From a virus: a stretch of DNA of 40,532 nt. Below are positions 1,979-40,532 of this stretch, in pieces. How positions within the stretch are numbered: the first letter of the stretch is position 1; each line of letters starts with the position of its first letter. Where the stretch lies: positions 1-40,532 of the IMG/VR virus record IMGVR_UViG_3300028114_000035. One strand, 5' to 3'. The notes beneath the pieces are model-generated. The model was not told the DNA's origin, did no database searches, and worked only from the letters and a program-made list of their open reading frames with translations. A program made the position numbers and the translations under genes.

Positions 1979-3142
1979 TTACATATAATTCCACATAAAA
2001 GACCGATCACCATACTCATCAGTAAACCAACGATCACCATCAACATCAGTGAAACTTGTTTCATCTAGTCCATCAGAAACAAAACCAAATGGAGCCATAT
2101 CCTGTTCTATTTGATTTTTTTGCTCCTCATAAAGTCTTTTTCTTACATCTTGATCTGTGAGTTCTTTAAAATAATCTTGTGCTACTAACCAGGCATATAT
2201 GACCAGACACATTGCTAGATCGTCGTTACATCCTTCTTCTGCCTCAAACGAATTGTGTTTTTGAATAAATGTGGTAAGTTCACTCATAATCTCATAATCA
2301 TTAAAGTTCAACTTATCCTCTTCAATCATAGTTTTGAGATTTAAGCACCCGATTTTTTTAACAGTCTTGGACATTTTTACTCCAAGTTGAGTTTTCTTTC
2401 CAGAAAATCCCTGTCCTACAATTTGACCTGCTCTTCCTCTCATAGAGCACATCAACAAATTACTATACTCCAAATCATACTGAAGAATACTTGCAACCTG
2501 ATCTCCGACATCATTAACTTCACATAATATAAATGCATTATTATAATTTTTTGCTACCTCATAAATGATATTTGGAAACATCATCGGTTTAATTTCGTTG
2601 TTTCGGTATTTTGCAACAACTTTATGAGGAAACTGTGTAATATCAACAACTACAAATGCCGAATAATCAATCCCTACCCCTCTAGCAACGTCTACAGTGA
2701 TGACGTAATCACATTCCTCATTCGCATCCACATAAACATCTAAACCAGCATTACGGGTCTTAGGATGCTCATAGACGAGTGATCTGAGTTTGCTTGGTGC
2801 AATCAAAGTATCAACTGAACCCAGAAACTCACAGTTATGTGATATTATACTGTTTGAATAATATAAATTATCTTCTCCAACATCCAATAAATCATAAAGA
2901 TATATTCCTTCCTCCACTATTTCATTATATACAACCCTCTTCCCTTGCAAAAAGTCATCTACTTTAATATTAGATGCTTTTATTTTTTCACTACCAAATG
3001 AATGATTTTCTGAACATTTTATTTCTGTTTCATCATCAAAAATTATCCAATGATAAAAAGGCTTATATACTTTTTGAATTCCAGAAAAAGTTTTGAATCC
3101 AGTAGGAGTTTTTATTAATGTATTTTTATTGAGTTTAAACAT
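1979..3142 (-). CDS. 17: Large terminase C-terminal part fused to split-intein C-fragment
   Basis: Residues 1-103 are a C-terminal split-intein fragment: a block-B-like SENHSF (His47), then block F/G ending ISHN. Residue 104 is Cys, the +1 nucleophile of the C-extein. Residues 104-387 are the nuclease half of the T4-like large terminase, starting CEFLGSVDTLI. Candidate RNase H-fold metal ligands are Asp151 (ITVDVARG), Glu208 (LCEVND) and Asp307/308 (CNDDLA). The protein would join by trans-splicing to the ATPase half encoded at 3745-4626, giving about 264+284=548 residues, near the usual cyanophage gp17 length. The start overlaps the end of the endonuclease gene by 8 bp and has a strong AAAGGAG site ten bases upstream, so the two are probably translationally coupled. 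Splicing itself is inferred. Confidence 0.95.
   Translation of the reverse strand: MFKLNKNTLIKTPTGFKTFSGIQKVYKPFYHWIIFDDETEIKCSENHSFGSEKIKASNIKVDDFLQGKRVVYNEIVEEGIYLYDLLDVGEDNLYYSNSIISHNCEFLGSVDTLIAPSKLRSLVYEHPKTRNAGLDVYVDANEECDYVITVDVARGVGIDYSAFVVVDITQFPHKVVAKYRNNEIKPMMFPNIIYEVAKNYNNAFILCEVNDVGDQVASILQYDLEYSNLLMCSMRGRAGQIVGQGFSGKKTQLGVKMSKTVKKIGCLNLKTMIEEDKLNFNDYEIMSELTTFIQKHNSFEAEEGCNDDLAMCLVIYAWLVAQDYFKELTDQDVRKRLYEEQKNQIEQDMAPFGFVSDGLDETSFTDVDGDRWFTDEYGDRSFMWNYM
2834..3142 (-). other. Split intein C-fragment (103 residues) of terminase
   Basis: This is the intein part of the downstream terminase gene. It begins MFKLNKNTLIKTPTGF and ends SIISHN directly before Cys codon 2831-2833. It is much longer than the ~35-45-residue C-fragments of canonical split inteins, because the split lies soon after block A. 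From memory, its length and sequence style (GIQKV, HIIFDD-like HWIIFDDETEIK, terminal SHN) match the AceL-TerL intein, whose C-fragment is about 104 residues. No endonuclease domain is present inside it. Confidence 0.92.
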
Positions 3143-3704
3143 TTTTCCAACACTCCTTTAATATTATTCTTTTTACTCCTTGTGGAGTTAAATTATATTT
3201 ACTAGCATATTCTTTACAAAATGCCTGAATATAAGACATTTCTCTACCATTTTTCATTATTAATCCAACATTCAATAAACTTGGTTTTTTTTCATATAAT
3301 AATCTAAGTTCTTTTATTTGATCGTCAGAAATTTTTCTAACAAAAACTCTACCCTTTCTAGTATTTTTCATTTTTTCTATTGTTTCTTGGGAGAAACAAT
3401 TTTTTACTCCCTTATTCCAAGGAATGTTTCCTTTGTTTACACCACCAATTCCCTTTCTATCATATTCATCAAAACCCTCTCCTCCTGGAGATTTGTTCCA
3501 TCCAGTTTTATATGTATTATATTTTTTTATATATTCAATTTCTAAATTTTTTGCATTCTCTGCAATATCAGTTTCTTCTATAATTTCAAAAATATGTTGT
3601 GGTTTTATTTTTTTATGATCTCGTTTTCTAGTAGTTGGATCTTTGGTTTGGCCAACATATTTAACATTGTCTTTTTCATCTCTAAGAAAGTAGATATAGT
3701 ACAT
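3135..3704 (-). CDS. GIY-YIG homing endonuclease inside fractured terminase gene
   Basis: A 189-residue nuclease, predicted to cut an inteinless terminase gene and so spread the insertion. The N-terminus MYYIYFLRDEKDNVKYVGQT carries the GIY-YIG pair in the variant form YIY...YVG (residues 3-5 and 16-18). A candidate catalytic Arg follows at 26 or 28, His30 lies close by, and the metal-binding Glu would be Glu55 or 57 in LEIEYIKKYNT. Residues about 83-118 (GIGGVNKGNIPWNKG, then SQETIEKMKNTRKGR) look like a NUMOD3 DNA-binding module; the C-terminal 60 residues may be a helix-turn-helix. It lies between the two intein halves and overlaps the second by 8 bp. Only an AGGA about 30 bases upstream could serve as ribosome site. 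Its target site is inferred from position. Confidence 0.92.
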   Translation of the reverse strand: MYYIYFLRDEKDNVKYVGQTKDPTTRKRDHKKIKPQHIFEIIEETDIAENAKNLEIEYIKKYNTYKTGWNKSPGGEGFDEYDRKGIGGVNKGNIPWNKGVKNCFSQETIEKMKNTRKGRVFVRKISDDQIKELRLLYEKKPSLLNVGLIMKNGREMSYIQAFCKEYASKYNLTPQGVKRIILKECWKNV

Positions 3705-3726
3705 TTTTATTTTTATTTTTATTTTT
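3703..3726. repeat. Hexanucleotide repeat ATTTTT x4 before the endonuclease start
   Basis: Four perfect ATTTTT units on the plus strand (AAAAAT on the coding strand) abut the start codon at 3702-3704. They fill the space between the late-promoter box and the ATG, where a ribosome site would be expected. Such a tract can change length by polymerase slippage. Confidence 0.85.
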
Positions 3727-3733
3727 ATTTATA
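3726..3733 (-). promoter_or_regulatory. Consensus late promoter TATAAATA for endonuclease and terminase C-part
   Basis: The minus strand reads exactly TATAAATA in the 40-bp gap between the stop of the upstream terminase part (3745) and the endonuclease start (3704). This is the T4 late consensus and the best late box I found in the window. It would let the endonuclease and the second terminase part be transcribed independently of the first part. Confidence 0.6.
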
Positions 3734-3744
3734 ATCCTACAAAC

Positions 3745-4626
3745 TTACATTCTATGATACAATTGACCTATAGTTATTTTTTTTATATTTTTAAATTCAT
3801 CTTTAATTACTATTTCAGTATCTCCACTTAAACACTCAAATTCAACTTTGAATTGTTGTTCACTTGTATTGTCAATGGTTTGTTTTTTCCAAACATCATC
3901 TCTTCCTGGAACCTCAGACCAGTGAACATCGGTTGGTATGTATTGATTTTTTCCTCTTTCTGCATCATGCCACATTCTATAGAAGTGGTTCATGCCATGA
4001 GGAGTAGAAACTATGATTACCTTTGTGTTTTGTCCAGATGAAATAGTAGGATAAACTGAAGCAAAGAATTGATCTGCAATATGATTTGGAATGAATGCAA
4101 ACTCATCAAGAAATATAATGTTATATGATCCACCACGAACAGCAGATGCAGATGTAGAAGCAGCTAATATTTTTGATCCATTTTCTAATTCCATGGAACC
4201 TTTGTTCCATGCTAAAATTCCTTGCTGCAACCATTTTGGTAAATTTTCATAAGCAATTTGCAATCTAGATAAAAGATCTCTTGCTGTAGATGCTTTATTA
4301 GCTAGAATTGCAATATTTACATTATCATTAAAAATTGCATAATGCAAAAGATAAGAAATTACAGTTGTACTCTTGCCAGTTTGCCTTGGCATTTTACATA
4401 TATTAAATCTATGACTATGAAAATTTTTAATTAATTTTTCTTGAAAATGATATGGTTTAAATGCTTCTAAACCATGATCTAGAGTAACAATTTGTACATG
4501 TTTTTTTGCAAAATATACTGGATCTTGTTTACACTTTACAAATTCAATAATTTGTTCTTGAGTGAATTCAATGTTGGTATTCGCTTTTTTTAAAAGAGGA
4601 TTACCTAGATAAATGTCAGCTCCCAT
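3745..4626 (-). CDS. 17: Large terminase N-terminal (ATPase) part with split-intein N-fragment
   Basis: The packaging motor ATPase half. Residues 1-264 are extein: Walker A MPRQTGKST (79-87), Walker B IIFLDEF (170-176, catalytic Asp174/Glu175) and the coupling motif STPHG (207-211). The extein ends FKVEFE. Cys265 then opens a 29-residue intein N-fragment, CLSGDTEIVIKDEF... ending LYHRM and a TAA stop. The missing nuclease half is encoded at 1979-3142. Precise joining would give VEFE-CEFLGS, the expected uninterrupted terminase sequence. The start follows the 564-residue Cys-rich protein by 3 bp, with at best a weak ribosome site. The two-part arrangement is not a simple frameshift, because an endonuclease gene and distinct intein ends lie between. 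Confidence 0.96.
   Translation of the reverse strand: MGADIYLGNPLLKKANTNIEFTQEQIIEFVKCKQDPVYFAKKHVQIVTLDHGLEAFKPYHFQEKLIKNFHSHRFNICKMPRQTGKSTTVISYLLHYAIFNDNVNIAILANKASTARDLLSRLQIAYENLPKWLQQGILAWNKGSMELENGSKILAASTSASAVRGGSYNIIFLDEFAFIPNHIADQFFASVYPTISSGQNTKVIIVSTPHGMNHFYRMWHDAERGKNQYIPTDVHWSEVPGRDDVWKKQTIDNTSEQQFKVEFECLSGDTEIVIKDEFKNIKKITIGQLYHRM
3748..3834 (-). other. Split intein N-fragment (29 residues)
   Basis: It begins at Cys codon 3832-3834 with block A, CLSGDTEIV, and stops after 29 residues. Canonical split inteins have N-fragments near 90-100 residues; this very short one is the AceL-TerL type (about 25 residues, recalled). The whole insertion into terminase, from the first intein codon to the last, spans 2834-3834, 1,001 bp. 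Confidence 0.92.
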
Positions 4627-32691: not shown

Positions 32692-33096
32692 TTAGTATCT
32701 GGTTGGTTGAAGTACAAAAGTTATTGCTTGTTGTGGGGCACTTAGTCCAACAATATCATATACAATACTTACATCCATGGCATTATCATCTAGTAAAAAT
32801 GCAACGCTCACATTTCTCAATCTAACTCTAGGTTCAAAATTATTAATAACTGTTTTAATTTCTTCCTTAAGTGGTTCTTCTACATCAATGCCTGCAAGTT
32901 CAAAAAAATAATTTTCTACCTTAGAACCTAAAAGAGGATTAAAGAATCTTTCGCCAACTCTAGTTCTCACCAGATTGATGACTGATCTTTTAATTGCATC
33001 CTCGTTTCTTAATGAAATAATATCATTAGTAACTGGATTTCTTTTAAAAGATAGACTGATATCTTTAAATCCTCTTGATACAGATTCTAAAGGCAC
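32692..33096 (-). CDS. 25: Baseplate wedge protein gp25
   Basis: 134 residues, MPLESVSRGFKDISLSFKRNPVTNDI onward, with the gp25 core motif VRTRVGERFFNPLLGSKVENYFFE. It is lysozyme-like only in name; it forms part of the wedge core next to gp6. The first codon is GTG at 33094-33096: an in-frame stop lies four codons upstream and no ATG precedes it. No clear ribosome site is visible. A late-promoter-like AATAAATA lies 24 bp upstream. Confidence 0.94.
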   Translation of the reverse strand: MPLESVSRGFKDISLSFKRNPVTNDIISLRNEDAIKRSVINLVRTRVGERFFNPLLGSKVENYFFELAGIDVEEPLKEEIKTVINNFEPRVRLRNVSVAFLLDDNAMDVSIVYDIVGLSAPQQAITFVLQPTRY

Positions 33097-33112
33097 TTTA
33101 TAGGGATATTAT

Positions 33113-33388
33113 TTACTTATATTTATTGTGGTTACAATTACAATATTGTGGTTTTCCATAAGTTGGTTCAGTTCCATACTCCCAATCATCATAATCATCA
33201 TCATTTCTAATTTTTTCATGAATTTCTGCTTGTTCTTTCAGAAAATGACTATTTTTTGGAATGTCATCATGCATAATTTCTTGAATTGTCTTTGGTTTTG
33301 GTAACTTTCCATAATCAGTTACGAGTTTTGTGGTTCCCCACATGTCATACATGTACTCTTTGTCTCTATCTACTGGTAAGTTTGACAT
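33113..33388 (-). CDS. Small acidic protein of unknown function next to gene 25
   Basis: 91 residues, MSNLPVDRDKEYMYDMWGTTKLVTDYGKLPKPKTIQEIMHDDIP..., with an acidic stretch (IRNDDDYDDWEYGTEP) and a C-terminal CNCNHNKYK that could bind a metal. Comparable short proteins beside gene 25 occur in T4-like cyanophages (recalled). It lies 16 bp before gene 25 and 50 bp after the 199-residue gene. No function is proposed. Confidence 0.75.
   Translation of the reverse strand: MSNLPVDRDKEYMYDMWGTTKLVTDYGKLPKPKTIQEIMHDDIPKNSHFLKEQAEIHEKIRNDDDYDDWEYGTEPTYGKPQYCNCNHNKYK
33120..33127 (-). promoter_or_regulatory. Late promoter-like box AATAAATA before gene 25
   Basis: Minus-strand AATAAATA inside the last codons of the 91-residue gene, 24 bp before the gene 25 GTG. 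One base from the T4 late consensus. Confidence 0.45.
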
Positions 33389-33438
33389 AAGTTTAGAATT
33401 CTAAGGTTAATTAGAACTTTTTAAGGGGTTCCTATCCC

Positions 33439-34038
33439 TTAATCAATATAAAATCCTTTTCTGTGATAATCTTCATCTAAAATATATGTATAATTTTGTT
33501 CATGTTCTGTAATTTTTTGATCCCAGACTGGTATAGCAACTGTATTTCCATATCTAAAGTCTGGATTTTGTCTAAAATGAACCTCTATTAACTTGTCTCC
33601 TATGAATTCACAATTAATCCAATCATAATTCCCCTTTAGATTGTCCAAAATTTCTGGAAATTTTATATTTTTTGATATTTTTTGCCACTTTTTCCATTTG
33701 TAGAGTGGATCTCTTTGATCCTTAATACCTTCTACTACTAGTAGAGATCTTTTTTGGTAAAAATCAACACTTAACTGTTGTCCATAGAAGATTTGAGACC
33801 AGAATTCAGATGGATGAAAATGTTCAGTAGAGTCCTTAATCCATTCTACTCTTGCATTTCTACCCATTCCAAGGAGGTTGAACATGGGTCTAACTATATA
33901 ATCTCCTTCATATGGAACAGGCACCCCTGTAGGTCCACAGAGATGCCCAAGTTTTATTGAAATTATTAGTTTATTGTATACCCAAAGATCATCAGGATGT
34001 ATAATTGCCCACTCATCTTTAGAGTCTAGACAATACAT
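33439..34038 (-). CDS. Conserved-looking protein, possibly ATP-grasp-like
   Basis: 199 residues, MYCLDSKDEWAIIHPDDLWVYNKLIISIKLGHLCGPTGVPVP, then YIVRPMFNLLGMG and near the C-terminus NCEFIGDKLIEVHFRQNPDF. The last two resemble the nucleotide-binding hairpin and the metal-binding 'E-x-H/N-x-R' strand of ATP-grasp enzymes, but the protein is shorter than a full ATP-grasp fold, so this is a tentative inference. I did not find a match to T4 gp53 despite the similar length and location. A GATAAATA box lies 23 bp upstream, suggesting late expression. Confidence 0.7.
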   Translation of the reverse strand: MYCLDSKDEWAIIHPDDLWVYNKLIISIKLGHLCGPTGVPVPYEGDYIVRPMFNLLGMGRNARVEWIKDSTEHFHPSEFWSQIFYGQQLSVDFYQKRSLLVVEGIKDQRDPLYKWKKWQKISKNIKFPEILDNLKGNYDWINCEFIGDKLIEVHFRQNPDFRYGNTVAIPVWDQKITEHEQNYTYILDEDYHRKGFYID

Positions 34039-34060
34039 TTAGGTCTTGAATAGATATTCC

Positions 34061-34068
34061 TATTTATC
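34061..34068 (-). promoter_or_regulatory. Late promoter-like box GATAAATA before the 199-aa gene
   Basis: Minus-strand GATAAATA overlaps the stop codon of the 46-residue gene and lies about 23 bp before the ATG at 34036-34038. Confidence 0.45.
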
Positions 34069-34204
34069 CTTGTCCTCTGTATCTCTTCTTAGGACCATTA
34101 CGAGAGGTTCTAGAGAGGATCGTTTGATTTGATCGTCCCTGTCTTGTCTTCTTTGGTTTATGTTCAATAATAACCTTATTGGTTAATGATGGACGATTTG
34201 CCAT
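34064..34204 (-). CDS. Small basic protein (46 aa)
   Basis: Read directly from the minus strand: MANRPSLTNKVIIEHKPKKT, then RQGRSNQTIL, ending KKRYRGQG. It is strongly basic (about 13 Lys/Arg) and lacks acidic residues except one Glu. I recall near-identical small basic proteins in many T4-like cyanophages. The charge suggests nucleic-acid binding, unproven. It lies 3 bp downstream of the 54-residue gene. Too short for length-filtered gene finding. Confidence 0.8.
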   Translation of the reverse strand: MANRPSLTNKVIIEHKPKKTRQGRSNQTILSRTSRNGPKKRYRGQG

Positions 34205-34207
34205 AAT

Positions 34208-34372
34208 TTAAATCTCCTGTGTTCTAATACATTCTACCATGAGGTCCCCTGGATTGGGAACTCCAGTTTCATAAAATTGTTCTGATAATTCATCTATAAT
34301 ATCAAACATCTCATCCTGGGAAATTTCATTATAAATGACTCTTCCATTACAAAGAATGCGATATGTTTCCAT
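34208..34372 (-). CDS. Small acidic protein (54 aa)
   Basis: Read from the minus strand: METYRILCNGRVIYNEISQDEMFDIIDEL, then SEQFYETGVPNPGDLMVECIR. A beta hairpin followed by a helix is plausible. The family resembles small conserved cyanophage proteins with a 'F-Y-E-T-G-x-P-x-P' motif (recalled). The ATG shares one base with the stop of the glycosyltransferase-like gene (TAATG), so it is probably translated by coupling. Confidence 0.75.
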   Translation of the reverse strand: METYRILCNGRVIYNEISQDEMFDIIDELSEQFYETGVPNPGDLMVECIRTQEI

Positions 34373-35124
34373 TAGATAACCCTAGTCTTCTCGTGTCCAA
34401 CTCTAATTTGTGGATGACACCAAATTTCAAATCCACATTTTCTTTTAGCATCCAGACAGAATGAAACATCCTCTCCACACATGTCCTGAACCTCTCCAGA
34501 GTCAAAGATTTGCATCTGTGGTGCAAACCATGGATACTTCATTTCTGGGTGCTCAAAGACTCCTTTCTTAATTAGCGTCCAACCAAATCCAGTATAATCT
34601 ACAGTAAATGGTTTTTTTCTATTTCCAATGGTATCTACCATTTCATGATTCATGACGCCACCATTGTTCTTGAAGTCCTGTTCATCTAACCAATGTGCCA
34701 CTGAGGTGGTTCTACCATCTTCTGTAGCATACCATCCACATGCAATATCCTTATCCATATCAAAGACTGCCCAGAAGGCATCCGTGTTGAATACAATGTC
34801 ACTATCAATCCAGAGTTGATAATCATATTGTAACTTACCCTGCCATGGTAATTGATCTGGTCCTGCAAGTACATTTGCTCCAAGGCATTTGCATCTTGCG
34901 AAGTTTACCATTGAACTATAATCTTGAGAAATTTGAATACTTGCTCCAGATTGAACAAGATCAAAACAAAGTTGTACGAAACTTTTTAAGAATGCATATG
35001 ATACACCACGTCCAGGCAAACAAAAAACAATTGTCTTACCTCTAATTCTTTCCTTACACCTTTCTATATTAAAAAGGGATTGTTGCTCTGGTTCTTTTGC
35101 TTTAACGGTAAATCCTTTTGCCAT
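34372..35124 (-). CDS. Glycosyltransferase-like protein (GT-A fold)
   Basis: 250 residues. Residues 29-58 (GKTIVFCLPGRGVSYAFLKSFVQL) resemble the nucleotide-binding start of family-2-type glycosyltransferases. WIDSDI gives the DxD-type metal site (Asp107/Asp109). CGEDVSFC, in the C-terminal third, is placed like the catalytic acid/base region, and HPQIRVGH is typical of the C-terminal His strand. It would transfer a sugar to a phage or host target, which is not visible here. A late-promoter-like box lies 54 bp upstream, so modification of virion proteins is more likely than of early host targets; this is inference. Confidence 0.78.
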   Translation of the reverse strand: MAKGFTVKAKEPEQQSLFNIERCKERIRGKTIVFCLPGRGVSYAFLKSFVQLCFDLVQSGASIQISQDYSSMVNFARCKCLGANVLAGPDQLPWQGKLQYDYQLWIDSDIVFNTDAFWAVFDMDKDIACGWYATEDGRTTSVAHWLDEQDFKNNGGVMNHEMVDTIGNRKKPFTVDYTGFGWTLIKKGVFEHPEMKYPWFAPQMQIFDSGEVQDMCGEDVSFCLDAKRKCGFEIWCHPQIRVGHEKTRVI

Positions 35125-35177
35125 AAAATTTATTCAGGTTGCAGACGACATATGTATCAATTCAAATGATACTGTAC

Positions 35178-35185
35178 TATTTATT
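35178..35185 (-). promoter_or_regulatory. Late promoter-like box AATAAATA before glycosyltransferase-like gene
   Basis: Minus-strand AATAAATA, overlapping the stop codon (35181-35183) of the 56-residue gene and 54 bp before the next start. The 56-bp gap between the two genes holds nothing else recognisable. Confidence 0.45.
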
Positions 35186-35351
35186 TCTTGTCAATCCACT
35201 TGTTTCCAAGTAAATACCAATTCATTATTCTATGAATGAGATTGGGTTTTTTTCGTTTCCACAAACAAAACTGATTTGGTTCTTCCTTACAATGATTTAT
35301 GCTCCAAAATCCTACAAATATACTTTGTTCTATTTCATCATGTGTATTCAT
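35181..35351 (-). CDS. Small basic protein (56 aa) of unknown function
   Basis: MNTHDEIEQSIFVGFWSINHCK...PNLIHRIMNWYLLGNKWIDKK. The ATG at 35349-35351 overlaps the stop of the preceding gene as ATGA, so I prefer it to an in-frame ATG five codons upstream. The Trp-rich basic C-terminus (HRIMNWYLLGNKWID) resembles other small cyanophage proteins. No function is proposed. Confidence 0.65.
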   Translation of the reverse strand: MNTHDEIEQSIFVGFWSINHCKEEPNQFCLWKRKKPNLIHRIMNWYLLGNKWIDKK

Positions 35352-35704
35352 TCTTCCTCCAACCAAGTTTTGAGATTTGCCATTACATCATCCATAGGTA
35401 TAACTTTTTCTTTACCAGTCTCAATGTCATCCACTATCTGCATCAAGTGCTCAAGAAACTCTTTAGAATAAACATCATCTTCTACAAGTGATGCCCAGAA
35501 CCAATCTAAACACTCTGCCTCTGGGTCATCTTCTTTGAGAAGTGCATAACCTTCATAGTTACTTCCCATCAAATCGGACCACATACGAAAGTTATGTCCA
35601 ATGGACTGCCAGCCTGTCATCCAACAGTGTCCAATATAATACTGCCACCAGTTCATTTTGGTTTGATTTGGAGATGTGGCAAGAATTGGTTTACTAAAAG
35701 TCAT
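35348..35704 (-). CDS. Trp-rich acidic protein (118 aa) of unknown function
   Basis: MTFSKPILATSPNQTKMNWWQYYIGHCWMTGWQSIGHNF..., with six Trp in the first 80 residues and an acidic helical C-terminal half (DDVYSKEFLEHLMQIVDDIETG, ending DDVMANLKTWLEEE). I chose the ATG at 35702-35704 because it overlaps the end of the upstream gene and has GGAA a few bases before it; the frame extends 13 codons further. The gene ends in an ATGA overlap with the next one. Confidence 0.65.
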   Translation of the reverse strand: MTFSKPILATSPNQTKMNWWQYYIGHCWMTGWQSIGHNFRMWSDLMGSNYEGYALLKEDDPEAECLDWFWASLVEDDVYSKEFLEHLMQIVDDIETGKEKVIPMDDVMANLKTWLEEE

Positions 35705-35885
35705 ATTGTTTCCATGTAGTTTTGTTTTCATTTGCATTAGCATTTGATATCATAAACTCATCTATTTCAAAATTAGTAGAAAATCCTGCATGAATCATTT
35801 TTGAAATACCAGTGAGTGTCTTTTGACATTCTGATAATGTGCCCTCACAAAACACTTTATCTCTTGCTATCAACTTATATGGCAT
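35694..35885 (-). CDS. Small protein (63 aa) of unknown function
   Basis: MPYKLIARDKVFCEGTLSECQKTLTGISKMIHAGFSTNFEIDEFMISN... The N-terminus looks like a short beta hairpin followed by a helix, typical of phage small modulators, but no family was recognised. It overlaps the 118-residue gene by 11 bp and lies 2 bp after the upstream small gene. Confidence 0.65.
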   Translation of the reverse strand: MPYKLIARDKVFCEGTLSECQKTLTGISKMIHAGFSTNFEIDEFMISNANANENKTTWKQYDF

Positions 35886-35887
35886 TT

Positions 35888-36118
35888 TTATCTGGGGAAA
35901 ATTTTTTTCTTATAATGGGACCCAAGTATATTTAATCCCTCCCACAAAGTAATTGTAATATAATAAAATTCATTCCAGGGACTTAGTGTAGTTCCATACA
36001 CATTATTATAAATCAACCTTATTGGTGTTTTTTTACCCCAAAAAATTTTTTGAATCACTTGATATCTCTCTCGCACTTTGTCACCTCTGTAGGTTAGGGG
36101 AGTCTTGTTTTTTCGCAT
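35888..36118 (-). CDS. Small basic protein (76 aa), first gene left of the candidate origin
   Basis: MRKNKTPLTYRGDKVRERYQVIQKIFWGKKTPIRLIYNNVYG..., ending YITITLWEGLNILGSHYKKKIFPR. It is basic and rich in aromatics, with no recognised motif. The ATG at 36116-36118 is preceded by GGGGGGTA, rather close for a ribosome site; a TTG start at 36148 is an alternative that adds ten residues. A strong sigma70-type promoter at 36164-36192 points at it, with a predicted start near 36157, which makes early expression likely. Confidence 0.55.
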   Translation of the reverse strand: MRKNKTPLTYRGDKVRERYQVIQKIFWGKKTPIRLIYNNVYGTTLSPWNEFYYITITLWEGLNILGSHYKKKIFPR

Positions 36119-36163
36119 TACCCCCCACAGGGTAACACAATCACACAAAATACCTGCTAATTC

Positions 36164-36192
36164 ACTATATCACAGGACTGCACATTTGTCAA
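36164..36192 (-). promoter_or_regulatory. Strong sigma70-type promoter, leftward
   Basis: Minus strand: TTGACA (36187-36192), 17 bp, TATAGT (36164-36169) preceded by TGA, an extended -10. The predicted start is near 36157, leading into the 76-residue gene. It shares the core TGTGATATA(A/G)TG with the rightward promoter at 36452-36480. Confidence 0.7.
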
Positions 36193-36197
36193 CTGTT

Positions 36198-36223
36198 ATT
36201 CACTGTCATTCACACATATTCAC
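36198..36223. repeat. Helically phased ATTCAC repeats
   Basis: ATTCAC occurs at 36198, 36208 and 36218, exactly 10 bp apart, followed by ATT at 36228. They lie between the leftward promoter and the first TTTTCCACA box. Single further copies occur at 36544-36549 and, in weaker form, near 36161. Confidence 0.7.
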
Positions 36224-36235
36224 AATCATTATTAA

Positions 36236-36261
36236 CCTGTGGAAAACTATTTTTCCACAGG
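36236..36261. repeat. Inverted pair of DnaA-type boxes (11-bp arms, 4-base loop)
   Basis: CCTGTGGAAAA and TTTTCCACAGG are perfect inverted copies separated by CTAT. They pair box one (minus) with the first iteron box (plus) and could extrude as a hairpin. A second inverted pair with 10-bp arms lies at 36579-36588 and 36601-36610. Confidence 0.85.
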
Positions 36262-36326
36262 TTATCACTTAGTTTTCCACAGGTTATCACTTAGTTTTCC
36301 ACAGGTTATCACTTAGTTTTCCACAG
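36251..36326 (+). repeat. Iteron-like tandem array, 22-bp period, 3 full units plus a partial
   Basis: Each unit is TTTTCCACAG followed by GTTATCACTTAG. Full units start at 36251, 36273 and 36295, and a 10-bp partial starts at 36317. The three full copies are identical. The 22-bp period keeps the boxes on one helix face, as in plasmid iterons. A detached TTATCACTTAG half-unit occurs at 36381-36391 next to another box. Confidence 0.92.
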
Positions 36327-36451
36327 GGTAAATATACTCATTGACACTGAGATCACTGATGCTCACTGTGTTTTCACTGTTTATCACTTAGTGCCTGTGG
36401 AAAACTATACTGTCAAGTACATGTGCCACCTCTGAGGGTGTCTGGGAGGTC

Positions 36452-36480
36452 TTGACATTTCAGAGGGTTTGTGATATAAT
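36452..36480 (+). promoter_or_regulatory. Perfect consensus sigma70 promoter, rightward, no gene downstream
   Basis: TTGACA (36452-36457), 17 bp, TATAAT (36475-36480) with TGA directly before the -10 (extended -10). The predicted start is near 36487. All genes in the window are on the other strand and no plus-strand gene follows, so the product would be a noncoding or antisense RNA, or an origin primer. TGTGCCA just upstream (36422-36428) also occurs in the early promoter cassettes. Confidence 0.75.
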
Positions 36481-36505
36481 GTGGGCCAAGATCACAATAA
36501 GATAC

Positions 36506-36542
36506 ACCATTTATAAACACATAATAAACCATTTATAAACAC
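36506..36542. repeat. Second 22-bp-spaced direct repeat
   Basis: ACCATTTATAAACAC occurs at 36506-36520 and 36528-36542, again 22 bp apart. It lies just downstream of the rightward promoter start in an AT-rich stretch, a plausible unwinding element. Confidence 0.85.
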
Positions 36543-36652
36543 TATTCACAGTAGCAAATAATACACAAATAACATACTTTTTCCACAGATATACACAAAC
36601 CTGTGGAAAACTCATATACATTTATTTTAACCTTTTTATTATCTCAATAACA

Positions 36653-36796
36653 TTATACGGAATTACTAACTAACCTTGCAGGTGACCCACAAGATAGATA
36701 AAAATCAACCATCCTTATTGCTTCACTTAGTGTAGCAAATGATTGAAACCTCCACTCACAATCATTGTAAGGAACTTGATACGTAATTTGATACAT
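36653..36796 (-). CDS. Small protein (47 aa), last gene of the early operon A
   Basis: Read from the minus strand: MYQITYQVPYNDCEWRFQSF, then ATLSEAIRMVDFYLSCGSPARLVSNSV. The pattern 'aromatic strand, W-x-F, helix L-x-E-A-I, Y-x-S-C-G-x-P-A-R' is familiar in small phage proteins that pass raw amino-acid input to a helix-strand fold, but no function is known to me. The ATG lies 2 bp after the stop of the 67-residue gene, with GGAG eleven bases upstream. The candidate origin starts directly after it. Confidence 0.65.
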   Translation of the reverse strand: MYQITYQVPYNDCEWRFQSFATLSEAIRMVDFYLSCGSPARLVSNSV

Positions 36797-36798
36797 AA

Positions 36799-37002
36799 TC
36801 ACTTCAACTCCTGACTATAAACTGAGGCAAATTGATTAGCAACTTCTACAGCAGAGAATGTTACAATCTCATCATCAAGTTTTGTTTGCTGAGTATCATC
36901 TACTGATGGAATCCATACAAACTTTTGAGTTTTGAGATCAGATGCAATGGTGAACATAAATTGAATTTGGTTTGAGTGATAGTTTGTGCTTAAGCAAGTC
37001 AT
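36799..37002 (-). CDS. Small protein (67 aa) of operon A, unknown function
   Basis: MTCLSTNYHSNQIQFMFTIASDLKTQKFVWIPSVDDTQQTKLDDEI..., ending with a helix AVEVANQFASVYSQELK. No motif recognised. The ATG directly abuts the stop codon of the 84-residue gene, so it belongs to the operon starting at 37524. Confidence 0.65.
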   Translation of the reverse strand: MTCLSTNYHSNQIQFMFTIASDLKTQKFVWIPSVDDTQQTKLDDEIVTFSAVEVANQFASVYSQELK

Positions 37003-37257
37003 TTAGACATCAAACACATCAGAGTTTAACTGTACTACATTCACTTTCGGAGAATTGAACTTAACGCCATCAGGAGTTTCATTCACTCCATACTCATCAT
37101 AAAGACACTTTACAAGAGTTTCATAATCACCACACTCTTGAGCAAGATGATATAAACCTTCTGCATTGTTAATCCAGAGAGAAACATTCCAGGTTTCATA
37201 ATTCTCCCAACCATTGTAGGAAATGTCCAAAGCATTGGATTGATAGGTTGTTGTCAT
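37003..37257 (-). CDS. Small NYETW-motif protein (84 aa) of operon A
   Basis: MTTTYQSNALDISYNGWENYETWNVSLWINNAEGLYHLAQEC..., ending KFNSPKVNVVQLNSDVFDV. The GWENYETWNVSLWINN motif is shared by a widespread group of small phage proteins of unknown function (recalled). The C-terminal 19 residues are nearly repeated in the 27-residue remnant at 37952-38035, which marks an old duplication. The start lies 21 bp after the first gene of the operon. Confidence 0.75.
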   Translation of the reverse strand: MTTTYQSNALDISYNGWENYETWNVSLWINNAEGLYHLAQECGDYETLVKCLYDEYGVNETPDGVKFNSPKVNVVQLNSDVFDV

Positions 37258-37278
37258 TTGTTTTGATCTAAGAATGAA

Positions 37279-37524
37279 TTAAGTGTAGGATAATATTGAA
37301 AATGATCCACAGAAGCTTCTAACCCAATTAAGTGTATCATAATGACTTCTGGGGTTAGACATTACCATGCTTGTATCCTTTTCTGGATTGTAAGCAACAG
37401 CAACATACTTGTTGTCACCTTCTGAATGTGGATTAAGACATTCAATCCACATTTGATTCACTTTACCTTCCTTCCAATCAGTGTGATAATGGAAGATTTC
37501 TGAACTGGTTTTTTGATTTTTCAT
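37279..37524 (-). CDS. First gene of early operon A (81 aa), probably leaderless
   Basis: MKNQKTSSEIFHYHTDWKEGKVNQMWIECLNPHSEGDNKYVAVAYNPEKD..., a small soluble protein without a recognised motif; the Trp/aromatic pattern recurs in the truncated copy at 38016-38069. Promoter cassette A places its -10 (37531-37536) so close that the ATG (37522-37524) falls at about +1. There is no ribosome site, so leaderless initiation is likely. The first codons (AAAAATCAAAAAAC) are identical to those of the other cassette-driven genes. Confidence 0.72.
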   Translation of the reverse strand: MKNQKTSSEIFHYHTDWKEGKVNQMWIECLNPHSEGDNKYVAVAYNPEKDTSMVMSNPRSHYDTLNWVRSFCGSFSILSYT

Positions 37525-37590
37525 ACATGTATGATAGCATGAATTTGGGGATTTCGCAAGGGGTCTTGTGCCACTTCCTCAACTGGCACA
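37521..37590 (-). promoter_or_regulatory. Early promoter cassette A (palindromic operator, inverted repeat)
   Basis: In transcription order: inverted repeat TGTGCCA...TGGCACA (37567-37590), -35 TTGCGA (37554-37559), 17 bp, -10 TATCAT (37531-37536) with TGC before it, and the 14-bp palindrome TCATACATGTATGA (37521-37534), which contains the start codon of the 81-residue gene. Confidence 0.75.
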
Positions 37591-37603
37591 CGATAGTTTT
37601 TCA

Positions 37604-37786
37604 TCAGTTAGCGTAATCAATCAACAGTTGTTCAAGTGTGTGAAGAGTCTTCACATTCCAGTTTTCATTATCACCAAATGGAGGATACAGTTTGCTATAC
37701 CAAACACCATAACGTTCTGGATTTAACTCTTGCAACTTCTCAAGAGTTTGTGCAATCAAAATGTTAATTTGTTCAGTATAAGTCAT
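37604..37786 (-). CDS. Small protein (60 aa) of operon B, unknown function
   Basis: MTYTEQINILIAQTLEKLQELNPERYGVWYSKLYPPFGDNENWNVKT LHTLEQLLIDYAN in outline: two helices around a central YGVWYSKLYPPFG. I chose the ATG at 37784-37786 because GGAG lies six bases upstream and it overlaps the stop of the membrane-protein gene; an adjacent ATG and a longer frame to 37873 exist but lack a ribosome site. Confidence 0.65.
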   Translation of the reverse strand: MTYTEQINILIAQTLEKLQELNPERYGVWYSKLYPPFGDNENWNVKTLHTLEQLLIDYAN

Positions 37787-37934
37787 CATTTTCTCCAACA
37801 ATAAAACCATCAATGAATCCAGAATCGTAAGAGTTAGTATCAGTAAAGAGTTTAATCTTGAGCAACTTTGCAATCAAAAAAGGAATAACGATTGCAAGGG
37901 CACCAGGAATAAGAATAGAAAGAAGAGAAGTCAT
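37773..37934 (-). CDS. Small single-pass membrane protein (53 aa) of operon B
   Basis: MTSLLSILIPGALAIVIPFLIAKLLKIKLFTDTNSYDSGFIDGF..., with one hydrophobic segment at residues 4-24 and an acidic tail ending GENDDLY. A GTG start at 37955 (overlapping the previous stop as GTGA) would add seven residues and is equally possible. The gene overlaps the 60-residue gene by 14 bp. Function unknown; membrane location predicted. Confidence 0.6.
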   Translation of the reverse strand: MTSLLSILIPGALAIVIPFLIAKLLKIKLFTDTNSYDSGFIDGFIVGENDDLY

Positions 37935-37951
37935 TTCGTTGTTAGTAACAG

Positions 37952-38035
37952 TCACAGGTCGAAGATGTTGGAGTTGAGTTGAACTATGTTGAGTTTTGGG
38001 TCAGTAAACTTTGCCTTACTTCCAGTTGTTGACAT
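37952..38035 (-). pseudogene. 27-codon remnant of the NYETW-protein C-terminus
   Basis: Open frame MSTTGSKAKFTDPKLNIVQL...IFDL. Its last 19 residues, KFTDPKLNIVQLNSNIFDL, align with KFNSPKVNVVQLNSDVFDV at the end of the 84-residue protein of operon A, while the rest of that protein is missing. It overlaps the truncated MKNQTT frame in another register. Most simply it is what remains after an internal deletion in a duplicated gene pair. It may still be translated as a short peptide. Confidence 0.65.
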
Positions 38036-38069
38036 AGTGGAAGACTTCAGAGGTGGTTTGATTTTTCAT
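38016..38069 (-). pseudogene. Truncated copy of the operon A first gene (17 codons)
   Basis: MKNQTTSEVFHYVNNWK followed by TAA. It aligns with MKNQKTSSEIFHYHTDWK, the start of the 81-residue protein at 37279-37524, and the next few bases still encode GKV in frame after the stop, as in the intact copy. Promoter cassette B lies directly in front with the same start-codon palindrome, so it may be translated as a leader peptide. Confidence 0.7.
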
Positions 38070-38134
38070 ACATGTATGATACCACAGATTTGGGCATTTC
38101 GGTAAATATAGCGACCACTTCTACAACTGGCACA
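38066..38134 (-). promoter_or_regulatory. Early promoter cassette B (partly decayed)
   Basis: The 14-bp palindrome TCATACATGTATGA (38066-38079) and -10 TATCAT (38076-38081) are intact. The aligned -35 is TACCGA (38099-38104, 17-bp spacer), weak, and one arm of the inverted repeat is changed (GCGACCA against TGTGCCA). It precedes the truncated MKNQTT frame and the membrane-protein operon. Confidence 0.65.
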
Positions 38135-38143
38135 TGCTAACAT

Positions 38144-38299
38144 TTAATCTGGAAATTGATTCAACTTAGCATCACTTAATGCTCCAATCATAGTCCAAAC
38201 TTTCTCTCCACTGAGAGTATATTCATTGCAAAGATATTCAACAATATCCTCAATGTTTTCCATAACTTCAATCGCTTGAGTTTCAATTTCAGCATTCAT
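38144..38299 (-). CDS. Small helical protein (51 aa), last gene of operon C
   Basis: Read from the minus strand: MNAEIETQAIEVMENIEDIV, then EYLCNEYTLSGEKVWTMIGALSDAKLNQFPD. The motif 'C-N-E-Y-T-L-S-G-E-x-V-W-T-M-I-x-A-L-x-x-A-K' is a familiar small cyanophage protein pattern; function unknown. Its ATG overlaps the stop of the 60-residue gene as ATGA, indicating coupling. Cassette B begins right after its stop. Confidence 0.75.
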   Translation of the reverse strand: MNAEIETQAIEVMENIEDIVEYLCNEYTLSGEKVWTMIGALSDAKLNQFPD

Positions 38300-38478
38300 A
38301 GGTGTTTTTCATTAAGGAAAGATTGAATACTTTTAAGTTGATCTACTGTCTGTTTTAGCGTTGAGGAGGAATATCCATAAGCATAAGGATAACCCTTGTT
38401 TGGATCATCAATCGCAATGTTGGATACACATATTGAGTTTTCAAGATCTTTAATGAGTTGATCAATCATTTGATTCAT
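38296..38478 (-). CDS. Small helical protein (60 aa) of operon C
   Basis: MNQMIDQLIKDLENSICVSNIAIDDPNKGYPYAYGYSSSTLKQTV DQLKSIQSFLNEKHL in outline: two amphipathic helices joined by a Tyr-rich loop. I take the ATG at 38476-38478, two bp after the preceding stop, rather than a non-ATG codon further up. It ends in an ATGA overlap with the 51-residue gene. No function is proposed. Confidence 0.68.
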   Translation of the reverse strand: MNQMIDQLIKDLENSICVSNIAIDDPNKGYPYAYGYSSSTLKQTVDQLKSIQSFLNEKHL

Positions 38479-38480
38479 AA

Positions 38481-38738
38481 TCAGCAAGAAGCAATGTGAT
38501 AGGTTTGAGCTACATTGGCGTTATCTCCAGTGATAAGATAGTCATGAAAGAGTCTATCTTGAATCTCATGTTGAGCATCATGATTGGTGCGCAACTTAGT
38601 GGAGATAGTATCAATACCCTTCCAAGTTAGAACTTGAAGCGTGAAACGAGTGGAATCAACTACAGGATAGAAACTAACAACCATTGTGCCATCCTTTGAT
38701 TGTAGTGTGGGAAACTGAGGTGTTTTTTGATTTTTCAT
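38481..38738 (-). CDS. First gene of early operon C (85 aa), probably leaderless
   Basis: MKNQKTPQFPTLQSKDGTMVVSFYPVVDSTRFTLQVLTWKGIDTISTKLR..., a small, probably beta-rich protein with a helical middle (HDAQHEIQDRLFHDYLITG). Apart from MKNQKT it is unrelated to the other cassette-driven genes. The ATG lies within the palindrome of cassette C at the predicted transcript start, with no ribosome site. Confidence 0.72.
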   Translation of the reverse strand: MKNQKTPQFPTLQSKDGTMVVSFYPVVDSTRFTLQVLTWKGIDTISTKLRTNHDAQHEIQDRLFHDYLITGDNANVAQTYHIASC

Positions 38739-38805
38739 ACATGTATGATAGCATGAATTTGGTTAAAAGTCAAGGGGGTCTTGTGCCACTTCCTCAACTG
38801 GCACA
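38735..38805 (-). promoter_or_regulatory. Early promoter cassette C
   Basis: Inverted repeat TGTGCCA...TGGCACA (38782-38805), -35 TTGACT (38768-38773), 17 bp, extended -10 TGC-TATCAT (-10 at 38745-38750), palindrome TCATACATGTATGA (38735-38748) containing the start codon. The inverted repeat lies inside the coding end of the 86-residue gene upstream, and the -35 directly adjoins that gene's stop region. Confidence 0.78.
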
Positions 38806-39023
38806 CTAAGATCATTCTCTTCTCTTAAGTAATATCTTGCCAAACCTTTCTTTTTTTCTATCTTTTCAAGAGCACGCCATATGATATGCTCAGGATTGCG
38901 TTCTTTAAGTTCTTTGGTAGTAGGGATTGCAGTATGAGAAGAATATGCTTGCTGCAATCTTAGAAAGAATGCAATGTTATCTGGTGATTCATTTGTTCCT
39001 TCTATCCATGAAACAGTAGGCAT
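38763..39023 (-). CDS. Small protein (86 aa) whose C-terminus is encoded by the promoter cassette
   Basis: MPTVSWIEGTNESPDNIAFFLRLQQAYSSHTAIPTTKELKERNPEHIIW RALEKIEKKKGLARYYL in outline, ending SVPVEEVAQDPLDF. The last 13 residues are the translation of the inverted repeat and -35 region of cassette C. I chose ATG 39021-39023 because a possible extended -10 promoter (TGCTATGCT, 39047-39055) would start transcription about 17 bases before it; the frame is open to 39104. Helical and basic; function unknown. Confidence 0.65.
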   Translation of the reverse strand: MPTVSWIEGTNESPDNIAFFLRLQQAYSSHTAIPTTKELKERNPEHIIWRALEKIEKKKGLARYYLREENDLSVPVEEVAQDPLDF

Positions 39024-39046
39024 TTTAATTCTCAAATTACTTTGTA

Positions 39047-39055
39047 AGCATAGCA
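39047..39055 (-). promoter_or_regulatory. Possible extended -10 promoter
   Basis: Minus-strand TGCTATGCT, like the TGCTATCAT of the cassettes, but without a good -35 at the right distance and without the palindrome. Predicted start near 39040 for the 86-residue gene. Confidence 0.4.
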
Positions 39056-39084
39056 CATTTAATAATGCTTTGGTAAATGTTATG

Positions 39085-39102
39085 GACACTTGCACAAGTG
39101 TC
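39085..39102. repeat. Inverted repeat upstream of the 86-aa gene
   Basis: GACACTT-GCAC-AAGTGTC forms a perfect hairpin with 7-bp arms in the gap after the membrane-protein gene. No T-tract follows on the minus strand, so an operator is as likely as a terminator. Confidence 0.6.
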
Positions 39103-39127
39103 ATATTGTATTATCTAAATTTTCTCT

Positions 39128-39436
39128 CTAATTCTTACCCAATTGAATGATTCCCCAAATACATGCGGAAATTCCAATGATTAAAAATATCCACTTCCAG
39201 GCATATAAAAGAAAGACAATAAGCAATAATAAAAGTATTCCTCCACCACTAAATGATCCTGAATTGTCATTATCAGAATCATCAGAATCATATGAATTAT
39301 CTAAGACTGCCATGATACATTTACCACCAGTTTGTGATTCAGCAAATGCAACTGCATCACTATGATTGTATGCTTCTACATGTACTGTTTGTAACCAATT
39401 AGATGGTGTTCTGATAGTACATTTCCATTCATTCAT
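39128..39436 (-). CDS. Small two-helix membrane protein (102 aa)
   Basis: MNEWKCTIRTPSNWLQTVHVEAYNHSDAVAFAESQTGGKCIMAV is a small soluble beta-alpha module. An acidic Ser/Asp linker follows (SYDSDDSDNDNSGSFSGGG), then two hydrophobic segments at about residues 67-82 and 83-98 (ILLLLLIVFLLYAWKWIFLIIGISACIWGII). It overlaps the nuclease gene by ATGA, so it is in operon D. The soluble module resembles small stand-alone phage proteins of unknown function; membrane location is predicted. Confidence 0.7.
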   Translation of the reverse strand: MNEWKCTIRTPSNWLQTVHVEAYNHSDAVAFAESQTGGKCIMAVLDNSYDSDDSDNDNSGSFSGGGILLLLLIVFLLYAWKWIFLIIGISACIWGIIQLGKN

Positions 39437-40110
39437 TTGTTATTGTACTCCTGAATGTATTGCTTGAGAGTGTCAACATAGTCAGCAGGGTTTCTAACAA
39501 AAACTTGTGTCTCACCTGAATGACAAGAAATCAAGGTAACAATTTGCTCTACTTTACGACCAGTCATTTCCTCATACATGAGTGCATAACCAGTTTCTTG
39601 AACAAAATAGTTTTGAATCTGATTCTCATACTTTGGTTTAGAAGAACTCTTGAAGTCAATGATTGATAATTTACCATTGTATTCTGCAATGCAATCTACA
39701 CGACCTGCAATGCCAAGTTCTTCTGAATATAGAGCAGATTCCTGATAGTGAATATTATCTACATCATCAAGAAGTGGTTGAAATTGATTAAACAATTTCA
39801 GAGCAACTTCATACTTCTCAGTATCATAATCTACATCAACATTGTTTACATAATCTTCCACAAGTTTATGAAACTTAGTACCATTAGTTGATGCAAACTG
39901 ACTGATCTTATTTGCTACATCTTCACCAACACGTTCTCTCCATTCTGCAATGGACTTGCGATTCTGATAGGAAGTAACAGTGGTAATAGATGGTAATAGT
40001 TTACCATTGACGCAATAACGACGTGAACCATCCACAGTTTCGGTGGGAATATCCTGAATAACATCAAGGTTGAGGTGATTGAACTGTTGTCTGGTTTTTT
40101 GATTTTTCAT
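39433..40110 (-). CDS. PD-(D/E)XK (RecB-type) nuclease, first gene of operon D
   Basis: 225 residues. Motifs: His81 in NGTKFHKLVEDY, Asp139 in GIAGRVDCIAEY, and Asp152/Lys154 in SIIDFKSSSKPK, the RecB/Cas4-like order H-D-DxK. Further Gln/Tyr residues follow in IQNYFVQETGYALMYEE. It is probably an exonuclease or endonuclease acting in recombination, DNA processing or host DNA breakdown; this family is common in T4-like cyanophages. I start at ATG 40108-40110 in the palindrome of cassette D, giving MKNQKT like the other cassette genes. The frame reads on upstream through the cassette (VTEVAQDPLDF), which I regard as untranslated. No Cys cluster for an iron-sulphur centre is seen. Confidence 0.88.
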   Translation of the reverse strand: MKNQKTRQQFNHLNLDVIQDIPTETVDGSRRYCVNGKLLPSITTVTSYQNRKSIAEWRERVGEDVANKISQFASTNGTKFHKLVEDYVNNVDVDYDTEKYEVALKLFNQFQPLLDDVDNIHYQESALYSEELGIAGRVDCIAEYNGKLSIIDFKSSSKPKYENQIQNYFVQETGYALMYEEMTGRKVEQIVTLISCHSGETQVFVRNPADYVDTLKQYIQEYNNK

Positions 40111-40177
40111 ACATGTATGATAGCATGGATTTGAGTAAAAGTCAAGGGGGTCTTGTGCCACTTCCGTAACTGGCACA
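40107..40177 (-). promoter_or_regulatory. Early promoter cassette D
   Basis: Inverted repeat TGTGCCA...TGGCACA (40154-40177), -35 TTGACT (40140-40145), 17 bp, extended -10 TGC-TATCAT (-10 at 40117-40122), palindrome TCATACATGTATGA (40107-40120) with the nuclease start codon. Confidence 0.78.
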
Positions 40178-40183
40178 CGGAGA

Positions 40184-40384
40184 TTACTCTATTTTACAAT
40201 CTGGATGCCATACTTTCAAAGAAGAGCAAACCTTTTCATGCGGAGTCAGAGTGTTTGAAACTCCCTGCCTTTGAAGTTTATCAAAGGAATCATACAGTTG
40301 TTGATCCCTTTGAGCAAGAAATACATTAAACCCCACCAATCCAATGATAGCAAGATAAATGTAAACAACTTGTGTGGATTTCAT
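40184..40384 (-). CDS. Small membrane-anchored protein (66 aa)
   Basis: MKSTQVVYIYLAIIGLVGFNVFLAQRDQQLYDSFDKLQ..., with one N-terminal hydrophobic segment at residues 7-24 and a soluble tail carrying two Cys (EKVCSSLKVWHPDCKIE). ATG 40382-40384 overlaps the preceding stop as ATGA and has AGAGG four bases upstream; the longer frame to 40432 is therefore not used. Cassette D begins 7 bp after its stop. Function unknown. Confidence 0.68.
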   Translation of the reverse strand: MKSTQVVYIYLAIIGLVGFNVFLAQRDQQLYDSFDKLQRQGVSNTLTPHEKVCSSLKVWHPDCKIE

Positions 40385-40532
40385 TTTACCTCTAGAAAGA
40401 ATTTGGCAAAGTTGTCTACTACAATTTGGCACATCTTATCATTTAATTCCTGATCATCACTATCAATGAGAGTGAGAAGATCCTGCTGAATTTGTTCTCT
40501 GGTTTGAAGTAAATATCCTTCCAGAAGTCTTT
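40381..40532 (-). CDS. C-terminal end of a gene cut by the window edge
   Basis: Open frame of 49 codons entering from the right edge, ending LTLIDSDDQELNDKMCQIV, then VDNFAKFFLEVK and TGA. It is helical and acidic; the end overlaps the next start as ATGA, typical of real neighbours here. The N-terminus is outside the window and the product is not identifiable. Confidence 0.65.
   Translation of the reverse strand, partial: RLLEGYLLQTREQIQQDLLTLIDSDDQELNDKMCQIVVDNFAKFFLEVK

Follow-up and report, generated by a model that had tools for sequence, protein, structure and literature searches.

To our knowledge, T4-type phages are taught as being independent of host DnaA. Replication at the T4 origins begins with a transcript that hybridises within an AT-rich element and serves as the primer for the leading strand (PMC3016281). 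One of these origins, oriE, needs an early promoter and contains evenly spaced 12-nt iterons, the role of which is not established (PMC3016281). Cyanobacterial DnaA binds paired TTTTCCACA boxes cooperatively, and domain IV of the Cyanothece protein binds pairs, but does not clearly bind a single box (PMC4674748). For cyanophage Syn9, a single theta origin has been predicted (Weigele 2007, cited in PMC2984593). This is an earlier origin proposal in the same family, and DnaA boxes go unmentioned in the review that cites it (PMC2984593). In the open-access papers that defined the scope of our literature search, T4-type cyanophages have not previously been described as having DnaA boxes, and no experimentally mapped origin of such a phage is apparent.

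The locus described here is, in our judgement from its sequence, a fairly probable early replication origin, in which a T4-like early origin transcript, an AT-rich unwinding element and a platform for host DnaA would be joined.

Setting of the locus

The window, i.e. the whole stretch of DNA that was analysed, is a 40,532-base IMG/VR viral contig with T4-type structural genes, among them genes for the terminase, the tail sheath stabilizer, head-closure proteins and proteins of the baseplate (such as gp6 and gp25). Among annotated DNA sequences, its closest relatives are phages of Synechococcus, such as S-SRM01, DSL-LC02 and S-SCSM1, and going by these relatives the host is presumably a picocyanobacterium. 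The gene for the baseplate wedge protein gp25 (32692..33096, minus strand), identified by tblastn against the annotated gp25 of isolates, serves as a syntenic anchor. The large terminase gene (1979-4626, minus strand) is split into two pieces (1979-3142 and 3745-4626), which are separated by a homing-endonuclease-like ORF with a GIY-YIG hit (3135-3704); the arrangement is that of a split gene or of an intron- or intein-type insertion.

The box array is located 3.1-3.5 kb upstream of gp25, in an intergenic gap of 650 bp (36149-36798). The gap marks the border between the structural (late) genes and small genes that mostly lack an assigned function. Among the ORFs flanking the array, a PHROGs search gave no Rep hit.

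Eight exact DnaA boxes

The sequence-only reading had reported eight exact 9-mers within 373 bp, four of them in 22-bp phase, together with two inverted pairs, and had taken the 9-mer for the cyanobacterial DnaA box. All of this is borne out, and the identification of the 9-mer agrees with published binding work (PMC4674748). The sequence TTTTCCACA occurs eight times at 36238-36610, five times on the plus and three times on the minus strand, and nowhere else in the 40.5 kb of the window. In 100 dinucleotide shuffles of the window, the 9-mer appears 1.14 times on average and at most 4 times. No enrichment in the whole window is seen for sites with at most one mismatch (24 versus 24.8 expected), and the signal therefore resides in the exact 9-mer.

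Box 1 (36238..36246, minus) is the divergent partner, at 13 bp, of box 2 (36251..36259, plus). Box 2 is the first of four boxes in 22-bp tandem phase, and is followed on the same strand by boxes 3 (36273..36281), 4 (36295..36303) and 5 (36317..36325), the last of which occupies nearly invariant alignment columns in the close clade. The four boxes belong to direct repeats TTTTCCACAGGTTATCACTTAG (36251..36325, plus; spacing 22, 22, 22), comprising three complete units and the beginning of a fourth. Box 6 (36396..36404, minus) is a lone reversed box located 47-59 bp before the promoter described below, and is kept in the close clade with a column identity of about 0.88. Boxes 7 (36579..36587, plus) and 8 (36602..36610, minus) form a convergent pair at 23 bp; relatives have a box at a similar place after the promoter as box 7, and the columns of box 8 have an identity of about 0.9 in the close clade. 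We refer to 36238-36325 plus the box at 36396 as cluster A, and to the pair 36579/36602 as cluster B. In the close-clade alignment, the core boxes are conserved at 0.88-0.99, versus about 0.5 for other columns.

Two sister contigs (L071 and L096), with 98% identity to the window in this region, have three tandem units to the window's four. The fourth unit is thus a copy-number change, and the tandem part is expandable.

Between the boxes (36151-36620), the short sequences CACTG, TTCAC and ATCACTTAG are found in 5, 6 and 4 copies, every one on the plus strand, at expected counts of about 0.5, 0.6 and 0. They are possibly weak sites for the same protein as the boxes, or for another one.

Antisense promoter and AT-rich elements

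Between clusters A and B lies a sigma-70 promoter (36452..36495, plus strand) of the form TTGACA-N17-TATAAT, with the start region GGCCAAGATCAC. Its -35 element (36452-36457) and extended -10 element (36475-36480) match the consensus in 12 of 12 positions, which makes it the best-scoring promoter at 33000-40532 of the window. It is directed opposite to all neighbouring genes. Side-by-side reading of relatives reveals a conserved GC..AGATCAC after the -10 element. Downstream of the promoter, the window contains no ORF of note for an antisense transcript, and a structured RNA at the locus is not indicated either by an Rfam match or by a consensus fold in RNAalifold. A palindrome around -10/+10 (TGTGAT...ATCACA) was considered and dropped, as its arms lack co-variation on inspection across promoter loci.

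The early transcribed stretch (36501..36579) is 76% AT, contains CATTTATAAACAC repeated at 22 bp, and includes a conserved CATTTA block. A second AT-rich element (36612..36660, 80% AT) directly adjoins box 8, ranks within the 3-4% of the window with the lowest duplex stability and contains the conserved ATTTATTAAnACATTTTTAA; it is a candidate DNA unwinding element. A promoter with AT-rich DNA downstream (36501-36579 and 36612-36660) is thus present, as in a T4-type transcript-primed origin. A MotA-type middle promoter of the oriF/oriG kind is not matched at the locus, where the -35 element is the full consensus TTGACA; the promoter resembles the early promoter reported for T4 oriE.

To the left of the array, a 40-bp flank CACCTCTGTAGGTTAGGGGAGT..TTCGCATTAC (36082..36121) is conserved and also found in phage P-TIM68 and in two IMG/VR contigs (L100 and L395). 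It forms a terminator-like hairpin on the plus strand.

Relatives in IMG/VR

The sequence-only reading had proposed a search of relatives for arrays at this locus; such arrays are found in abundance, both in IMG/VR and in isolates. Relatives retrieved by the gp25 protein alone have clustered boxes 2.3-4.4 kb upstream of gp25. In a box-independent test, IMG/VR was scanned with the promoter motif only, which yielded at least 115 distinct loci. In 60.5 kb around these anchors (-250 to +300 of the motif) there are 195 exact boxes (3.2 per kb), versus 33 in 875 kb elsewhere on the same contigs (0.038 per kb), a difference of about 85-fold. Permuted 9-mers near the promoter reach a mean of 0.76 and a maximum of 11. 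Wherever gp25 or gp6 is found among the matches listed, the promoter is antisense to it and 2.5-8.4 kb upstream. Conversely, 60 of the 120 listed IMG/VR loci with 22-bp direct box pairs have gp25, gp6 or a neighbouring glycosyltransferase-like gene, in most of the listed cases 2-7 kb from the boxes, and several 22-bp-pair loci that lack the strict promoter motif carry a variant of the same promoter.

Boxes are not a constant feature of the locus. Among the matches listed, many promoter loci have one or two boxes only, and 42 of the 95 with full flanks (about 40%) have no exact box at all. Degenerate boxes do not take their place, since near-boxes are not in excess at the box-less promoter loci. 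On a gp25 tree, box presence or absence changes at least 29 times, with 10 changes forced by well-supported branches; this is a quick tree from few columns, with sampling biased towards box-bearing loci. The extreme form of the array is seen in two more distant relatives (contigs L100 and L124), which have 12 TTTTCCACA each, mostly in tandem.

The geometry of the locus is regular. In the listed IMG/VR matches, boxes are located at about -210 to -45 and +70 to +260 relative to the -35 element, and none overlaps the promoter between about -45 and +70. Spacings between boxes of the same orientation are mostly 11-12, 20-22 and 42 bp, and those of convergent boxes 12-14, 23-25 and 33-34 bp. Same-orientation spacings are in helical phase, with a Rayleigh R of 0.84 (n=57) that is descriptive only because the sequences are related. 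Judged by sequence, spacings of this kind would be expected if protein protomers lined the same face of the helix, an arrangement for cooperative binding. Averaged over 71 listed loci, duplex stability dips at +150..+200, where AT content is about 75% versus about 62% and AT-rich sequence is conserved; the counterpart in the window is 36612-36660.

At least 35 anchors have a T4-type late promoter, TTATAAATA, which is directed towards gp25 and located 50-100 bp behind the early antisense promoter, so that many relatives have a divergent early/late promoter pair. Reading of the sequence finds no TTATAAATA motif at the window's locus.

Cultured isolates

The promoter motif occurs at most once per whole record. 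It is found in P-TIM68, S-CAM9, S-SM2, S-SSM7, Bellamy, DSL-LC02 and S-SCSM1, and is absent from the whole records of T4, P-SSM2, S-PM2, Syn9, S-T4, S-SRM01 and S-CRM01. Three isolates (P-TIM68, S-SM2 and DSL-LC02) have both the box cluster and the promoter, S-PM2 and Syn9 have the cluster without the promoter, Bellamy, S-CAM9 and S-SSM7 have the promoter without boxes, and P-SSM2, S-T4, S-SRM01 and S-CRM01 have neither. The 9-mer is not scattered without pattern, as there are only 0-8 exact boxes per whole isolate genome, and the sole close clusters (in P-TIM68, S-SM2, DSL-LC02, S-PM2 and Syn9) are all upstream of gp25. In Syn9, the cluster is a convergent pair at 52565/52589. T4 has no DnaA-box clusters, only three lone TTATCCACA, and this E. 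coli-type box, considered as a substitute in the box-less isolates and T4, does not form clusters there.

The switch in GC skew that the sequence-only reading would place at the locus is not clear in five isolates, in which the curves are dominated by the one-strand gene layout. After detrending, these isolates have no sharp switch at the locus and the global extremes lie elsewhere. In Syn9 and S-SM2 the maxima are at a distance of about 8-11 kb from the box pair, and in the remaining three at other places. In the absence of a sharp switch, GC and AT skew were dropped as origin markers. The CfrI antisense RNA of S-PM2 was also considered as a counterpart of the locus, but psbA is near 135 kb and the box cluster at 19.2 kb in this phage. 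As the two are far apart, CfrI belongs to a different locus.

Boxes in host genomes

In Cyanobium and Synechococcus, the region before dnaN contains degenerate boxes, such as TTTTCCCCA and TTTTCCACC. Four host genomes have 6-17 exact boxes per 2.2-3.3 Mb, with no dense cluster. Since the host boxes are degenerate and few, the phage array surpasses these host origins in both the number and the quality of its boxes. A match of the phage array to the host oriC layout was rejected, as the boxes beside dnaN are degenerate. In three genomes they include inverted pairs 21 bp apart, a likeness to the phage array that is suggestive but not conclusive. The degeneracy of the oriC boxes also means that the exact 9-mer may not be what the DnaA of the real host prefers. 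Among nine host genomes, the sole close direct pair of exact boxes is found in Synechococcus RCC307 (L567:1501-1542), about 474 kb from dnaN.

Comparison with known origins

Like T4 oriE, oriF and oriG, the cyanophage locus has a promoter followed by an AT-rich unwinding element. The sequence-only reading had drawn the contrast with T4 too sharply, given that iterons and the use of an early promoter are both features of oriE (PMC3016281). In the T4 annotation, oriF directly adjoins gene 25, and the cyanophage locus is also near gp25. However, oriF has a MotA middle promoter, 3' of gene 25 and in sense orientation, whereas the cyanophage locus has a sigma-70 promoter, 5' of gp25 and in antisense orientation. 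Homology to oriF by way of gene 25 was rejected in view of the opposite side and strand.

The locus shares with the cyanobacterial oriC of S. elongatus, Anabaena and Cyanothece an intergenic TTTTCCACA cluster, with paired boxes that are bound cooperatively in those origins (PMC4674748). It differs from them in belonging to a lytic-type phage, in not being beside dnaN or dnaA, in the antisense promoter, and in having perfect boxes in place of the degenerate ones of picocyanobacteria. The tandem repeats of about 22 bp, the DnaA boxes and the AT-rich region are reminiscent of iteron plasmid origins, but here the array repeats are themselves DnaA boxes, and no adjacent Rep gene is recognised. The new part is the combination of a DnaA-box origin and a T4 transcript origin at a conserved T4-type phage locus, as each of the two is already known by itself.

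Alternative roles of the boxes

DnaA could act at the locus as a transcription factor, with boxes that control the early antisense promoter (in marine relatives, TTATAAATA as well) and thereby set the timing of the early-late switch. A strong promoter flanked by boxes on both sides would suit this role, as would the late promoter that faces gp25 in at least 35 anchors, and the location at the border of the small genes and the late structural genes. However, the region from about -45 to +70, where repressors usually sit, is free of boxes, and the antisense transcript lacks an obvious target, be it an ORF of note, an Rfam hit or a conserved fold. Moreover, regulation would not need a conserved AT-rich element beside the boxes, and TTATAAATA is not seen at the window's locus on reading. 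We consider this role unlikely. It is more doubtful still that the array is a datA-like decoy, which would sequester host DnaA and so prevent the host chromosome from starting further rounds of replication. The boxes are perfect and denser than in four host genomes, whose oriC boxes are degenerate, and their copy number can expand, up to the 12 boxes of L100 and L124. Yet a decoy would need neither the fixed locus, nor the promoter, the AT-rich element and the helical phase, all of which are conserved, and many members have just one or two boxes. A datA-like site would have boxes without origin elements, whereas here the promoter and the AT-rich element are conserved among and beside the boxes.

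The inverted 9-mers might also be RNA hairpins or terminators of an antisense or leader transcript rather than protein sites. Convergent pairs can form stems of 9-12 bp, one of them terminator-like on the minus strand. This explanation is already largely refuted and has very little probability left, as many relatives have direct repeats only, which are unable to pair (L175, L285, L295 and L373), the stems lack a clear U-run on reading of the sequence, and RNAalifold gives no consensus fold.

Candidate early origin

An origin is the best explanation for phased boxes on both sides, a strong promoter of immediate-early type, an AT-rich element, a single copy, and a fixed locus and orientation. 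Right after infection, host sigma-70 RNA polymerase would make a short non-coding, antisense transcript from 36452-36480. Host DnaA on the phased consensus boxes to either side of the promoter would bend or strain the DNA between them, and the AT-rich element adjoining cluster B would open, helped by DnaA and by passing transcription. The transcript could remain annealed at this element as a primer, as in T4 oriF, before the helicase, loader and polymerase of the phage take over. The boxes, the promoter, the AT-rich element and the conserved layout, orientation and phasing are observed; DnaA binding, duplex opening, priming and a replication start at the locus would follow from them if the origin reading is right.

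T4-type phages encode their own replisome, which counts against the origin reading. The lack of a skew switch, the box-less promoter loci and isolates, the isolates with neither boxes nor promoter, and the degenerate oriC boxes of the hosts were also counted against it. Some relatives retain the promoter and the AT-rich part but have no boxes, so that DnaA probably boosts initiation in T4-type cyanophages and is not strictly needed. The many box-less promoter loci and the at least 29 box changes on the gp25 tree suggest that the boxes are possibly an add-on: the promoter and the AT-rich part may be the core, with the boxes added to it, or the boxes may serve timing or as a decoy. The origin proposed in the sequence-only reading is thus partly supported, by the box arrays conserved at a fixed locus, but that reading had missed the antisense promoter, the AT-rich element and the box-less relatives. 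We find the odds evenly balanced for the wider proposal that a fixed hybrid origin recruits host DnaA onto a T4-like early transcript and so can tie phage replication to the initiation control of the host, with arrays of up to 12 boxes being repeatedly gained and lost.

As the locus is conserved and single-copy in isolates with cultured hosts, it would allow the replication start of very abundant marine and freshwater viruses to be mapped. Mapping would show whether T4-type cyanophages couple to host replication control or interfere with it.

Clustered short motifs are also seen in other viruses. Microvirus mar31 (MZ089777.1, 2955-3080) has about 11 copies of TTTTCCACAGG in tandem, repeated every 11 bp, between its pilot gene and its capsid gene, and the 46-kb Klebsiella phage S16a (PV239575.1, 2965-3130) has an intergenic cluster of several TTATCCACA boxes.
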